Source: Dermatophagoides farinae (lineage: Eukaryota > Arthropoda > Arachnida > Sarcoptiformes > Pyroglyphidae). Taken from it: 64,000 bases of DNA. Of the stretch, positions 29,267 to 41,000 are shown piece by piece. The position numbers and the translations under genes are program-made. Within the stretch, counting starts at the first letter, position 1. The number at the start of each line of letters is the position of its first letter. Where the stretch lies: NCBI RefSeq assembly GCF_024713945.1, contig NC_134678.1, positions 3,968,001 to 4,032,000 on the forward strand. The letters are read 5' to 3'. Under the pieces are notes generated by a model. The model saw only the letters and a program-made list of their open reading frames with translations. It ran no database searches and was not told where the DNA came from.

Positions 29267-32020
29267 CTAAACAATCAACTGAGGAGCAGAAATGAGACAT
29301 ATGGCCAATGATAATAAGGTAAACAAAGTAAACAATATAAGACAAAGACGATCAAGAACCGTTGCACCATAACGCCATTCGGCAATCAGCTCTTTGATTT
29401 GATCTTCTTCACGCAGACGATCTGTAATAAAACGCATTTCGATCAATATTTCTAGTAATTTATGTCGACGTTTCATGCTCATATATTGATGTAGGCCATA
29501 ATGTTCTGGATCGATTTCATTATGGCTTTCATCCTGTTCGCCATCATCATCATCATCATCATTATCATCATCATCCACATTATGGCCACCTTTATCCGTT
29601 AAATTGTTACGAGATTCATTAATTTTATTGAGGCCATCTTTTTTATTGTTTATTAGACGAGTTCTAGACCCAGTCATTGCAATCGATACTTCTACATCGA
29701 GATCCTCGTCCAATAGACAATCTTCAGAACCGGGGCCATCATCTTCGACGCGAGTATCATCGCGACAGCTAAATAAATCGTCTGTTTTTGTCAAATCAAT
29801 TGAATCGCTGTTATTGACTAGAGGCAAATTATTATGATGATGGTTATTCGATGTTGACTTATCGACTGAATCATTGGTTCGCTGTAAAAAAAGGCAGTTG
29901 GATTCATGTTCATGGAGAACGTCGTCTGCTGATTCCATGTATAAATTTGGATGAAAAAGATATCTATGGTCAGCATTGTTAGTAACGTTCTCGATTTGAT
30001 GAGGAATTCGGTCATCATCGCAATCTAATGGAACAACAGTTGGTGGACTATTGAGTTTAGGAATCGAATTGCATGTTAAATTAGCATTGCCAGTCAGACC
30101 AGTTGTCTGCATCATGAGCATTACTTCATCAGCAGCGGCAAGATTTAAATCAGGATTTTCCGTAGCAAAATTTTGCTTATGAATGTTGTTGTCATTATCG
30201 TGTGGAACAACAGCGCATCCTAATGCAGCCACTAATTTTTGTGTAGATGAGACTTTTTTCAGTATACACTGTTTTGGTGGCTTGATGCCTGGTCGATCCA
30301 TGCCCAACAAACGTGGCAACCAATCCAGTAAAAATTTTCGTAGTTTAGGTCCCATTTCTTTTGTTTCTGATGAACGATGATGAAAGTTGAGCACAACAAC
30401 AGTCATCACAACTGATACAGCAACCATGACCATGATCGATCCAAAATACAAAGCGATGATTGATATAGAATCCGAAGTGGCAGGCAAAATTTTGCTCAAT
30501 TGAACGAGAAATACAGTCATCGAAAGCAGAATGGTTACACCTAGGTGCAATTTTTCACCTGATTCTGGTGGTGATGAAAAACTTAATAATGTCATCGAAG
30601 ACAATATTATACAAGGTATTATTAAATTGAAGCCATAATACAGCGTACGGCGTTTGATGTGTATAATAAATTTTATGTCAACAAATGGTCCAGGACAGCA
30701 TTCATAATATTGTGATGTTCGAATCGATGGAACATCAACAAGTACCCATTCGCTATTTACTTGATAATCAGACGTATCGGCTGAGACATTTTCCGGCAAC
30801 AAATCCACTTGTAACCCATCATACCTATCAGGAAATGTAAATCATAATATAAGTATAATATGTCATGAATTTTTTAATAACACCTACGTCCAGGATCCAA
30901 ATTTAAGTTCACAACGTTGATCATCAAATGGAAACCATGTAATATCTATACGACAAGTACTTTTAAATACACCCGGTGGTACATACAAACATCCTCCAGT
31001 ATAGTTGACAACAACATTGGTGCGAAATGTACTATCGAATCTTTCGTCAGCACTATTATACATTAATACATCCGGTATCCAAATACGATCGGTCATTATA
31101 CGTAGAGTTTCAACGCCACCATATTCTTCTGGATTCCAGCGAAGATTTATGTCTACCCATTGCTTTAAAAAATTAGGAAAATTATCAAATTTTCAGATTA
31201 AATATCAAATGTCTACTTATCGAATACATACGAATTTCAACCATAGATTTGAAATTAATATCTGATTCTTCTCATCAACATCGATTATTTGTTGTAATGT
31301 AATGCCGAATATAACATTTAATGTGTCATTCTCATTTTCTACTGGCCGTTCTAATGGATTATAATTGTTTAGAAGGTGGTTGATCAAGTGGCGCTCATTG
31401 ATGCCTCCATAGACCAGATCACAGATCATCAATAATGACAAACATAATGTTTTTTCAATTTTAACAACTGATTGAAAAGGAATAAATTCTCGATAAAAAG
31501 TTTCCTTCATGGCCACCAGATGTCCACTGTAGAGTAGTTGAGAATGTTGAGAGTTATATGAAAATTTTTTCGAATTTGTTATCAAGCTTTTTTTGAATAG
31601 AAGCTCCTTGTGTTCAGTTTGACTTAGTTACCACGACTGAAGAAAAAACTGTTTGGCCATCGGAAATTTACAATTTATAGCAATGTCTTGGCGAAATGGA
31701 TGCGGCGTTATCCTAAATTCGAGATGCTGCTACCACTTCGAAACCAATGTGAATGGAGCAGGCGTATGGATATTCAAAATTGTCATGAGATTGAATGCGC
31801 AAGACGATTTAGTTGCAAATTGATTAGTGAATATCACATTGGATTATTAACAACAAAAAAAAATAGGTAACTTATCCAAGCACATACTAGCAAAAAAAAA
31901 TAACCATTTTCTGGGTTGCCAATTAATTTCAAAACCCATCACTCACCTGAGGATTTGATTTGTTCCAGAAACTAGGATATATGATAAATGAAATTCGCTT
32001 GTAGTTGATTTACAACACAT
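29267..32020 (-). CDS. Nicotinic acetylcholine receptor alpha-type subunit, divergent pore
   Basis: A Cys-loop ligand-gated channel subunit. Exons: 31947-32020, 31232-31526, 30888-31162 and 29267-30824 (introns 420, 69 and 63 bp). All phases agree and give 733 residues. If translation starts at the inner ATG (31508-31510) the product is 703 residues, and that numbering is used here. A hydrophobic signal segment (about 21-36) is followed by the ligand-binding domain with [12 protein letters not shown], the 13-residue Cys loop (C163-C177, [15 protein letters not shown]) and vicinal cysteines C227-C228 marking an alpha subunit. M1, M2 and M3 are at about 246-267, 277-296 and 304-330, then a long acidic loop and M4 ending APQLIV. 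Oddities: His at M2 2', Lys at 20', and Phe instead of Tyr after the cysteines. It lies downstream of a second subunit gene on the same strand. Confidence 0.92.
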
Positions 32021-35063: not shown

Positions 35064-38000
35064 TTAAGCCAACAAATGTGGAGCTGATGCTAAACACATA
35101 ACTAATGACATTACGGCAAACGTGCTGAATACAATCAAACAAAGGCGATCAATAACAATGGCGGCATATTTCCATTCACTTATTATATCAGCCAAATCAT
35201 CTTCACGTCTATAGCGATTGGTCATGAAACGAAGCTCTTGCATTATTGAATTAAAATAATCGATTGTTTGATGTGATCCAGTTCCGGTACAAGTACAACA
35301 ACAACAAGGATTTTGTTGAATATAAACAGAACTGACAGCAGCATCATTGTGCTGAAGATGAAAATAATTTTGTTGCTGACTTTGCTGATCAAAATGATGG
35401 ATTGCTTCATCCGAGGCTAACAATCCGCTACACTGGCGACGTTGCTGTTGTTGTCCAAGAAATTGTTCATTCATTGTTGATGGCGATGGATGATGATGAC
35501 TCATATGACCAGGGGGCGGCGGATATGTAGAATAAGCATATGGACAAATTCCACTCATTGTTCCACAACCATTCGATTGTCGATTGGCTCGATCAAGATT
35601 CTGCTGTTGAGATCTATGGGCACAACCACGTTTATGGCATAATGATTCATATTCTTTCATCTTTTCAGTCAAACGCATCAGTTCCAAATGCGTCGGTGAT
35701 GATGGTGTGTTGAAATGATTGGTTGTCAAAGATGATGCTGCGGTAGCGCTAGAACGTAAGTTATTAATAGCAACACCTGGAGTGTTCCAAGTGTCTGATG
35801 GCACATGATTCTGATTTTGGTATGGATTATTCGTTGCACAATAGGCTTGATGCTGAGTATGAAAGTTATTGGTTGATTGATGTTGCTGCCTATGCTGTTC
35901 AGTACGTAGCAATTCGGGTGGCCTTTTTATTCTTAATATTATTGGCAGCCAAGTAATAATTACTTTTCGTATCTATAAATTTTCGACATAGAATATATCC
36001 AAATCAATTAAAAAATCAAATAAAATGGTCATCATAAGTCTTCATTATATAACTTGGATATACTTACCCAAGTAGGCATCTCCTGTTGTTGTTCGGTGGT
36101 CCGATGATGAAAGTTGAGCACAACCACAGTCATAACAACAGAGAAAGCCACCATGACCATAATGCAAGCAAAATAAGATCCTACAATGTATCAAAATCAA
36201 ATCAAACCAAACAAAGACAAACGCGGCAAGTGGCCCGATTAGTGTTAGGATTTTTGACAAGATAAAAAATTACCCAATTTACTTACCAATAATAGAAACA
36301 GAATCCGATGTAGCTGATTTCAATGAAAAAGCAAATATAATGAAAATGATGATCGATAAAGTACAATAAGATTGAATATGATAAACATGTTTCCGAAAAG
36401 GAAATCATTGTCGTCCACTCTCATTATTAGTTTATATGGAATGACTTTCAATGTTGAATTCATCATCATGAATTGTTGAATAGATAAAGTGGCCGTAACA
36501 CCCACAAAATAATAAAATAACTCATACTGAATGTTGATATTTTGATAACTAAAATGATTCATTCGATATTCTATGAATGTATTGTTATATTCATTCTAAT
36601 TGAACATTCATACACAACAATTCAGAATCATTGAATTTTGTAACAATGTAACCAATGCTATCATGTTATCGAACGAAAAAAAAGTCAAACGAATTGTAAT
36701 GGTACAAATAAACATAAAATCAATTTAATTATAAAACAAAAACAACACGATTTCTACACGACTACGCATCTATTGGCATAATATCACTGCAACATGATTA
36801 CAAAAAAAAAAAAAAAAAATACAATGCAATCATGGTGATCATAATCATCGAGATTAGATAACTTGATTGATGAGTGAAAACTTTCATGAATATCAAATAG
36901 AATGATTCATCATTATATGGCTCAATCGATTCGTAAAAAATTTTACATTTATGCCCAAGTGTGATGGTAAATCTCTAAGTTAGTTTTTGGGAACATTGAT
37001 TAAGAAATTAATAATTTTCATTTTTTTAAATTCAAAAAAAAACTTAAAAATTTTCAAGATTAGAGTTTTCTTTACATTATAGCAACATTATTCTTAAGGT
37101 AATCTACTTTAGAAAAAAAAATCTCTATAAAATCTAGTTGAATATTCACAGCCAATAGGAATTTGTTTCAAATTTCAAAGAAAAAATCCGTTTCTTGAAA
37201 TAAAATCAGTACAAGTGATAGAAAAAATATGTGAAATGTATATTTTCAAGATTGCTCATCATCATATACAGGATAAAAAAGCAGTCCTGAAACGGCACAT
37301 CATACTAAGTATGATTGAATTGGAAAATGATGAACAACGAATAATAAGAAATAATAATGTTAAGTGGATTGCATGGTCGAATAACGTCAGTAATATCCTA
37401 TGCCATCTAACTCTAGAAACTATTTCTTGTTGTATAGCATCTCAAAAAAAACCTATTTTATTAAAATGCTAAACGATTCCTTTGTTATATATTGAAAACT
37501 CATTCTTTTTACCACTCTCTTTCTCTCAAGAGTTTATTATTCTCTCGAAATGTCTGTACCATCAGTATTAGTGCCGAGTAACGTTATATCTTAGCAATTA
37601 GAATTCAAGAATATCGAACCCTGTGGTCGTTGTTATTGATGCTTATATAAGTAAACGGTTGCAAACATCTTTTGTTTTTCATTGAGAATAAAATGATTTT
37701 TTCAAATAAATGAATTCAGAACATAACCGGAAAATCCAAAACGAGTTAGAAAATTGTTCTACTCTACCTAAACAATGGCAAAGACAAAAATAAAAAATAA
37801 AAAATTGAGCCAAGTCATGAGCTGATGGCCTATCGGATAATGATGTTATCATGGCTTTTGAACAAAACAACAGACCAAACAATAATTCACATCAAAATTC
37901 TAGAATAGTTTGCCATGCTGCAAAAACAAACTTACGAAGATGATCACAGCAGATCTATCATCAGATAAAACTTATTATCCAAGTTTACGAAGAAAACATG

Positions 38001-41000
38001 TATAAAGTGAAGCATATATTAATGAATTCTAAAACATTGTTACGATTTGTTTGAATAATAATAAAGAACAACAAGAACGAAGACCTATTTTGTTTATAAA
38101 TCGCATTTCTCTTTTTTTCGGAATTATTTTCACTTGATTGAACAACGAATGAATCGGAAGATAGCCAAGATAAATCTAATTCCATTAATTACAAGTATAT
38201 AAAAAGAATCAAACAAGGTAACTTACCAGGCATAATTTCGGCCAACTGCATCATGAACACCTAAACATTTTGAATCGATAATAAAGTGCAATAAGATTAA
38301 GTTCAAGGTTTTTCTATATTTGTGAAGATAGAGTTTGATAGACTTACAATCATGGAGAGCAATATGGTGACGCCTAATGTTAATTTCTCTCCAGAATCTG
38401 GCGGTAAAGTAAAACTGAGCAATGTCATCGATGAAATAATGACACTAGGCACTATTAGATTGAAGCCATAATATAGGGTACGTCGACGGATTCCAATCGT
38501 ATAGGTAATGTCGATATATTGTTCAGGACAACATTCATAGCTTTGAACGTTACGAAGACCGGGTACTCCTATAGAAAGCAATTAATTCATACAAATTATC
38601 TATGAAAAAAATACAGTGTACATACCGAGCAAAACCCATTCACCATTGGGAATGTACGGCGAGATATCACCATTGCTGCTATCATTTAGGAATCGTAAAT
38701 CCATTGCTGATCCATAGTAAGTCCACGATCCGAATTTAATATCACAAAATTGATCGTCGAAAGGGAACCAGGTGATGTCAATTTTGCAAGTACTTTTAAA
38801 AATACCAGGCGGTATGTAGAGACAACTGCCATTATGATTGACCACCACATTCGAATGATAGGTTCCATCAAATTTTTCATCGGCACTATGATAAAATGTC
38901 AGATGATTAAAATAAATGTCAATATAATGTACTCACCTATTGTAGAGCAATATATCCGGACGCCATACTTTATCGGGTGAAATTCGAAGATCAGTGATGC
39001 CACCATAGTCATTGGGGGACCATCGAAGATTTGAATCGTTCCATTCCTTTGAAATGATATGAATAATTAATAAACAAAAAAAAAGGTTTGAAAGCAATAA
39101 ACATACCAATCTAAGCCACATGTTGGTGATTATGTTTTGATTCTTTTCATCTACATCGATTATCTGCTGCAATGTGAGGCTAAAATAAACGTCTAATATT
39201 TCTGATTCATTGGCAACGGGACGTTCAAGTACATTATAATTGCTGAGTAAATCATTTAACAATCGACGTTCATGAGAACCACAGATCACTGATGATTATG
39301 ATGATGACGAACAAATCAAATATGAATGAATCAAGATAGAGAGAAAGAGAGAGAGAGAGAAATTGAACAAAATAATCTAGTTAATTCATTCATTCAATAA
39401 TTATGCAACACAAAGTTCATTCTTTTAATTTTTATTGAAAGAATTGGAACGTGATAGACCTTATTCAGTTTAAAAACATGTCCGGTGTTTGCAAGTATGC
39501 AAAAAAAAAATTGTTTGTTGTTCTATTGTCAGCTTATTTTCTGGCCCTTATTCGCAAATATTTATCCATCGTGTTACGCATAAATTCATGTAATGCAGTG
39601 TTTATGAATAGGAATTCTTTTTTCACCTTTTGAATATGTAACATACATATAAAGTTGAAGTATTTCTCTATTCGAAAAATGAAAACAAATCTTCCGCCAT
39701 GAACACATCATCAATATGTACTCATCAACATAACATCGAAGACCAAATGTTTGTTTTTCACTTTTTTTTTGGAATCAAACAATGAATTTCAACAAAATAA
39801 AACGATCTTTTTATCAATGAAAATATCTTTATAATAAACGATTATAATATATTTCTAGAGTAAAATTCTAGTATGAGTTTAAATTTTGAAAAAAAACCGA
39901 TCAACAACCAGAACAATGATGATAATCTCTTTACAGACAATTTTCACTTCATAATAACTAATTTTAAAGCCATAAATTTGAAAAAATAAAATTTTTATGA
40001 GCTACAACCAAAAAAAGACGATTATCATTGTCTTGAAAAATGTCACAAAAAATTTTAAATTTTACACTAATCCATATATTGATATATATCTTAATAATAA
40101 GTCCCATAGGTCTCATCAATACATTCGTGAAAGTCTATAAACGTTCATAATGACCACTATGACTCAGTAATAACTATTATTATTATTATTATCATCACCA
40201 CCATCATTATCATTATTCGTATGGAAAAACTTGGTAGTTTTGAGATAAAAATACAGAAAAAAAAGAAAGAAAACATCTGTTTTAACCCTTTTTTTCCAAA
40301 CTAAATTGTACCAGAATAAATGAATGAATAAAGCACACAGCATGCCATCGTTGCCATTTTTTTTTTAATATTAAGGTTATTAATTTAATTCAATTTAATA
40401 AAGATTTACACATACATACATTTTTTTCCTAATGTAAGATTGGTCTTTATGAATTTCTTTCTTTTCTGTTTTGACAATAAAGAAACTTCACCAAAAAAAA
40501 AAAAAAAAATGATATATAGAAAAAAATAATTACCAATATATCTAAGCGTAAGAAAGTTTTTTCTTGTTGAAGTGTTCTTTTATATTTATTCATGTTTATG
40601 TTTGAAATAATAAGAAAAAAAAATTCATCATCATCATCATCATTCGTTTTGTATGTATTTTTTACAGTGTTTAGAAAAATCTATAATAGTTATAATACAA
40701 AAAAAAAGAAAAATAAAGATGAAACACAATGTAGACGACAAACAAAGAAAAATGAGTATAAAAATTTATTTTTTCAATTTAATTCAAAGTAGACAGAAAC
40801 GAAAACAAAACGACTTAGTCATAATAACGTTATTTTATTCAACAACAACAACAATAACAACAACAACAACAAAACATCATACAGAATGCATGAAAGATTC
40901 ATTTTCTCACACACACACACACACACACAAACAAACAAACTGGCAAGCTTATTTATTCAAAACATTTACGTTGGACGCCAAATGAAAACAAAAATTCAAT

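Follow-up and report, generated by a model that had tools for sequence, protein, structure and literature searches.

Among nicotinic receptors, alpha7 of vertebrates is homomeric and alpha6 of insects is the target of spinosad. The pore of the muscle acetylcholine receptor (AChR) was reportedly scanned along M2 by Cymes in 2005. As regards the pore positions of interest here, 2' is pore-lining in Cys-loop receptors (PMC4569296); the adjoining glutamate ring at -1' has the largest effect on current (PMC8011927) and forms the intracellular constriction of the open alpha7 channel in simulations (PMC12393385), and when -1' is mutated in simulated alpha7, selectivity comes to depend in part on the 20' ring (PMC8011927). 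A histidine engineered at 9' of the muscle AChR is described as having a near-bulk pKa and as giving pH-dependent current sublevels and a lower single-channel current, visible at pH 7.4 (PMC12749857). In the mite Psoroptes ovis seven nicotinic subunits have been described, among them two close pairs, one of which is Dalpha6/Dalpha7-like, and transcription of every cys-loop channel but GluCl is low, in the range of 1-50 reads per million (PMC12364353); the word histidine is absent from the main text of that paper. A natural histidine at 2' is already known in mites for a GABA subunit (PMC4261083), and no report of one at 2' of a nicotinic subunit was found in the parts of the open-licence literature that were searched.

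The gene considered here (the focal gene) lies in a 64-kb window, this being the whole stretch of DNA that was analysed, and consists of three exons with GT-AG introns which together yield an intact 703-residue open reading frame for an alpha-type nicotinic subunit (Table 1). That the gene encodes a nicotinic receptor subunit, as an initial annotation had proposed, is borne out by Pfam, NCBIfam and PDB matches that agree with one another: the ligand-binding and membrane domains are recognised by Pfam (PF02931, E 6.5e-69; PF02932, E 2.7e-48), the NCBIfam model TIGR00860 for neurotransmitter-gated channels matches above its cut-off, and the best solved relative in a PDB search using the first 342 residues as query is alpha7 (E 2.1e-117). 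A Cys-loop with 13 residues between the cysteines and vicinal cysteines in loop C (YYECC) are both present, and the binding-site aromatics of loops A, B and D and the first of loop C, at their usual places, align with those of alpha7. The second loop-C tyrosine is replaced by phenylalanine at 30683-30685 (YECCPGPF, as against YECCKEPY in alpha7), a replacement that may lower agonist affinity; the tyrosine is retained in the neighbouring receptor gene. The intracellular loop is long and poorly conserved. The gene is present in a single copy, the genome giving one match at 100%, no relatives of it were found in the viral and prokaryote genome collections, and it looks like a maintained, working subunit gene. 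Judged by its nearest relatives, which are alpha7-like, the subunit appears to belong to the alpha7-like group (Drosophila alpha5/6/7).

Table 1 Positions of the focal gene, its tandem neighbour and two divergent nicotinic-like genes. Plain numbers are positions in the window; for the last two rows, positions in the genome assembly are given.
Feature	Position	Strand	Description
Exon 1	31232..31510	minus	Signal-peptide-like N terminus and start of ligand-binding domain; donor GTATGT
Exon 2	30888..31162	minus	Ligand-binding domain with Cys-loop; acceptor AAAG, donor GTAGGT
Exon 3	29267..30824	minus	Loop C, M1, M2, M3, long intracellular loop, M4 and stop; intronless; acceptor ATAG; Pfam PF02932
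Cys-loop of focal subunit	30911..30955	minus	15-residue stretch
Loop C of focal subunit	30683..30709	minus	Vicinal Cys of alpha subunit; Phe at alpha7 loop-C Tyr position
CAC codon, His at M2 2' (residue 278 of 703)	30545..30547	minus	Read in spliced open reading frame
M2, E-1' to K20'	30491..30556	minus	Gapless alignment to alpha7
AAA codon, Lys at 20'	30491..30493	minus	Glu in neighbour and alpha7; Lys also in beta1-like subunit
Tandem paralogue	35064..39288	minus	Eight coding exons identified, 5' end missing; Thr 2', Glu 20'
Neighbour exons with loop C, M1, M2	38227..38568	minus	Intron splits M2 after 12'
L050	G000:C5:3082200-3092100		Divergent non-alpha nicotinic-like gene; ligand-binding match C5:3087137
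L051	G000:C8:4342000-4351900		Divergent non-alpha nicotinic-like gene; ligand-binding match C8:4346873

Within M2, the codons on the minus strand read GGT GAA AAA TTG CAC CTA GGT GTA ACC, and numbering as in alpha7, with E at -1' and K at 0', places the histidine at 2'. M1 to M3 align to alpha7 (GEKISLGITVLLSL; human chains in the PDB) without gaps, so that the CAC codon, the spliced reading frame and this alignment all agree with the initial annotation in putting histidine at M2 2'; its statement that alpha7 has Ser and the neighbouring receptor gene Thr at that place is likewise confirmed. The features of cation-type channels are otherwise found in this M2, namely Glu at -1', a hydrophobic residue at 13' (V13') and a GEK rather than a PAR motif; the Ser or Thr at 2' that is usual in cation-selective Cys-loop receptors, without being required of them (a nicotinic subunit of this genome, L016, has Ala), is replaced by His. 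At least two substitutions separate CAC from any Ser or Thr codon, and three separate it from the ACA of the neighbour. When the window was scanned with an M2 pattern, no alternative M2 exon came up, the only other M2-like stretch being that of the neighbour; since, in addition, M1 to M4 lie without introns in exon 3, the histidine looks constitutive. It is a genuine amino acid replacement, and for the focal gene the sequence, the position, the intactness of the gene and purifying selection on the surrounding codons are all directly supported.

The tandem neighbour is the nearest paralogue in the genome, being 75% identical over M1-M2 as compared with 47-58% for four other paralogues and 56% for alpha7, in a comparison that left out the beta1-like subunit L005 and the divergent L050 and L051. 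Identity between the two tandem genes is 60.5% (124/205) in the ligand-binding domain, 78% (25/32) in M1, 82% (32/39) from the end of M2 through the end of M3, and 24% in the intracellular loop. From -2' to 10', ten of 13 codons differ silently, two are identical and a single one, that for 2', is replaced; this pattern speaks against decay or a one-base error. Over 361 conserved codons, dN is about 0.28-0.29 and dS 1.5-2.3, and as dS is saturated the ratio is a rough one. The two genes also differ in their introns: the focal gene has two and the tandem paralogue at least seven, including one within M2 and one just past it, so that the M2 of the neighbour is made up of a 15-residue part and a 34-base mini-exon encoding 11 residues. 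The focal intron after GSWT is absent from the tandem paralogue, and the focal M1-M4 region has none.

Position 2' was then compared across the window's own assembly (62.4 Mb in 22 contigs), in which searches with the Pfam membrane and ligand-binding domains gave 43 and 46 exon matches, respectively, and a search with the focal exon gave 22, these exon counts being lower bounds. Seven nicotinic subunits of GEK type were found, all seven with Glu at -1'; at 2' there is His in one of them, the focal subunit, Ser in L001, Ala in L016, and Thr in the neighbour, L004, L017/L019 and the beta1-like L005. Lys at 20' is shared within this group by the focal and the beta1-like subunits. Counting duplicate loci once and reading 2' by eye, the focal subunit has the sole 2' histidine among the 27 M2 segments of pentameric ligand-gated ion channels (pLGICs) listed, a figure that becomes three in 29 listed segments (at the aligned 2') when L050 and L051 are added; histidine at 2' may thus occur in three of nine nicotinic-type genes of the genome. 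The combination of Glu at -1' and an alpha-type binding site with a 2' histidine is found, among these three, in the focal gene alone. The subunit with Ala at 2' (L016, G000:C6:4320542-4320799) has YPCC in loop C, and for its likely counterpart in P. ovis FxCC has been reported (PMC12364353). The mite itself is almost certainly the house dust mite Dermatophagoides farinae: an open reading frame for a group-21 allergen agrees with Der f 21 of the PDB, with no mismatch across query residues 22-133, and both EF1a primers of D. pteronyssinus match with 0 mismatches. P. ovis was considered as the source, since its two published actin primers (each in two copies) and its EF1a forward primer match exactly and either species has seven such nicotinic subunits; it was rejected on the allergen match, the D. 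pteronyssinus primers, one mismatch to its EF1a reverse primer and the YPCC of L016. The best hit of the Der p 2 family, L031, is probably the MD-2-like Der f 22 and does not argue against Dermatophagoides.

L050 and L051 are divergent. PF02931 recognises the ligand-binding part of each (E 7.8e-28 and 1.5e-27, respectively), the best matches for that of L051 being muscle-type AChR alpha chains (E 1.6e-22), and their membrane parts are missed by the M2 profile and by the Pfam membrane model. No cysteine pair was seen in the loop C region of either, and they are classed as non-alpha for that reason; the best other match of L051 is L050, at 30% identity. In a joint alignment the start of M2 reads I-R-F-H-L in L050 and L-R-F-H-L in L051, so that Arg occupies 0' and His 2', with Ile or Leu in place of Glu at -1', and the R-F-H-L of both aligns with the K-L-H-L of the focal gene. 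For L050 the placing comes from the joint alignment alone; for L051 it is also obtained by counting on from the proline of M1 without gaps and from one of the two PDB alignments listed, that to a delta chain. The other, to the best-matching chain, an alpha-6, has two inserted residues and would move the histidine to 4'. With His at the aligned 2' in both genes, the 2' histidine is not unique to the focal gene; and because it occurs in L050 and L051 without Glu at -1', a histidine at this position is no sure sign of a tuned cation pore.

Several other channel loci of the assembly may be mentioned here. Two RDL-like GABA subunits, L009 (G000:C3:3509255-3510112) and L015 (G000:C4:5321452-5321736), have Gln (CAA) at M2 2' (PARVQLGVTTVLTMTT), which is the dieldrin-resistance position, and a third, L006, has the usual Ala. 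With three nicotinic-type His and two RDL-like Gln in one genome, there are signs that the ligand-gated channels of mites vary to an unusual degree at 2'. L024 (G000:C4:2437500-2442500) holds three divergent anion-type pLGIC frames, two of them with a proline in mid-M2 (e.g. PARVTVMLVPLMDLISED), and its ligand-binding-domain matches extend to C4:2445797. L013 and L014 (G000:C3:5291938 and C3:5314736) are anion-type pLGIC loci, separated by about 23 kb, whose M1-M3 letters are identical where both are visible, a likeness that points to recent duplication or gene conversion. In loci L025, L028 and L030 the M2 search found no M2.

What, then, might the histidine do? The direction of the change, the assembly of the subunit, the lowered conductance and the effects of pH and metals at the histidine are all matters that we infer, and the explanation that we regard as best, to which taken jointly we would give about an even chance, is that of a genuine replacement in an alpha7-like subunit which enters mixed pentamers, the resulting channel being cation-selective, of lower conductance and partially blocked by protons. 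The replacement most likely arose after the tandem duplication, in the copy that also carries Lys at 20'. The focal subunit would most likely co-assemble, for instance with the Thr2'/Glu20' neighbour, giving one to three histidines per pore. A cation channel is to be expected because Glu at -1' is kept, and cation selectivity should accordingly persist; on the same ground a switch of charge selectivity is unlikely, though this subunit does have Lys in the 20' ring, which in the alpha7 simulations affects selectivity once -1' is mutated (PMC8011927). A bulky, titratable imidazole placed just above the selectivity glutamates should reduce unitary conductance, and its protonation at mildly acid pH should reduce it further, amounting to a partial proton block whose extent would scale with the number of focal subunits per pentamer; transition metals may also bind at the 2' histidine, and Lys at 20' would give the outer mouth a permanent positive charge. 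Lower conductance together with a partial proton block is thus the likeliest effect in mixed pentamers, and the 2' histidine could make the focal current acid-sensitive. The initial annotation had raised pH-dependent conductance from a titratable residue, and the general principle stands, given the 9' histidine of the muscle AChR as described (PMC12749857), while its transfer to 2' is a matter of analogy. The functional precedent does sit at 9' and not at 2', and a single histidine in five subunits may matter little at constant extracellular pH. A more elaborate proposal, and one that we consider rather improbable, is that tandem duplication gave rise to a partner subunit tuned to pH and conserved in dust and mange mites alike, through which acid lowers the cholinergic current and Lys at 20' cuts calcium entry, with L050 and L051 acting as further non-alpha partners that contribute to a fuller histidine ring.

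Other readings of the locus have to be set against the proposal of mixed, partially proton-blocked pentamers. An error of assembly or base calling, a pseudogene, or recoding of the mRNA might mask a normal Ser or Thr, and it must be borne in mind that the sequence comes from one assembly and that insect nicotinic transcripts are known to be edited. Such an artefact is nevertheless very unlikely: the two or more changes between CAC and the Ser and Thr codons, the intact reading frame and splice sites, the low dN/dS and the outcome of the pattern search for an alternative M2 exon in the window all argue against it, and A-to-I editing of CAC would yield Arg, not Ser or Thr. Slightly less probable still is that the histidine together with Lys 20' makes the channel anion-permeable or proton-activated. 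Two extra basic or titratable residues in the pore would favour this, as would the weight that the charge of the 20' ring acquires in alpha7 simulations once -1' is mutated (PMC8011927); however, the GEK motif of cation type and its -1' glutamate are retained, the -1' ring is the one with the larger effect on current in those same simulations (PMC8011927), and the beta1-like subunit has Lys at 20' as well.

A more serious contender, which we hold to be possible if somewhat doubtful, is that the histidine is real but functionally quiet, tolerated in an accessory subunit of which each pentamer holds one or two copies, and having no physiologically relevant effect on pH dependence or conductance. 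The Ser, Thr and Ala already seen at 2' among the GEK-type paralogues and the aligned histidines of L050 and L051 are consistent with such tolerance, and Lys 20' and the loop-C phenylalanine would fit a relaxed, accessory role; on the other side, the codons flanking 2' encode the same residues in both tandem paralogues, and 2' is a residue that lines the pore (PMC4569296). It is also conceivable, though unlikely, that the replacement chiefly alters sensitivity to pore blockers such as natural toxins or acaricides, as changes at 2' of GABA receptors do, and that the histidine has been kept on that account. In this respect RDL1 of Tetranychus urticae is described as having His at 2', and its low sensitivity to fipronil as likely due to differences in M2 (PMC4261083), and the Gln at 2' in two RDL-like subunits of the present genome makes the position seem variable in mites; but what blocks RDL is no guide to what blocks a nicotinic pore, and the literature examined yielded no blocker data for mite nicotinic receptors of the focal group.

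Overall, then, the observation is confirmed and the mechanism of mixed pentamers with lowered, proton-sensitive conductance is plausible. If the histidine works as expected, it would parallel, in nature, the pore histidines that have been engineered to probe permeation through the AChR, and would be a mite-specific pore feature in the receptor group that includes insect alpha6, the spinosad target.

It remains to place the focal subunit among the known systems. In common with the Drosophila Dalpha5/6/7 group and the P. ovis pair PSOVI69g00580/00600 (PMC12364353), it is an alpha7-like subunit, and from this pair's paired place and likeness to Dalpha7 we infer a counterpart of the focal gene in that species. 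The spider subunit Cupiennius nACh1 is another arachnid nicotinic subunit with an unusual M2, but there it is Lys at -1' and Ser at 20' that are reported (PMC4569296), whereas the focal subunit keeps Glu at -1'. It likewise keeps both the -1' glutamate and the loop-C cysteine pair that are missing from L050 and L051, whose unusual M2 segments share the aligned 2' histidine. T. urticae RDL1 shares with it a natural 2' histidine in a mite pLGIC, but is GABA-gated and has Ile at 6', where the GEK-type focal subunit has Thr (PMC4261083). With the histidine-bearing muscle AChR it has in common an imidazole facing the pore of an AChR, the difference being that in the muscle receptor the residue was engineered, and at 9' (PMC12749857). 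To alpha7 (PDB 9vix, 7kox and others) the likeness extends through a gapless M1-M3, the Cys-loop, YxCC in loop C and the pore residues E-1', T6', L9' and V13', and the difference lies in the Ser at 2', the Glu at 20' and the Tyr following the cysteine pair of loop C that alpha7 has in their place.
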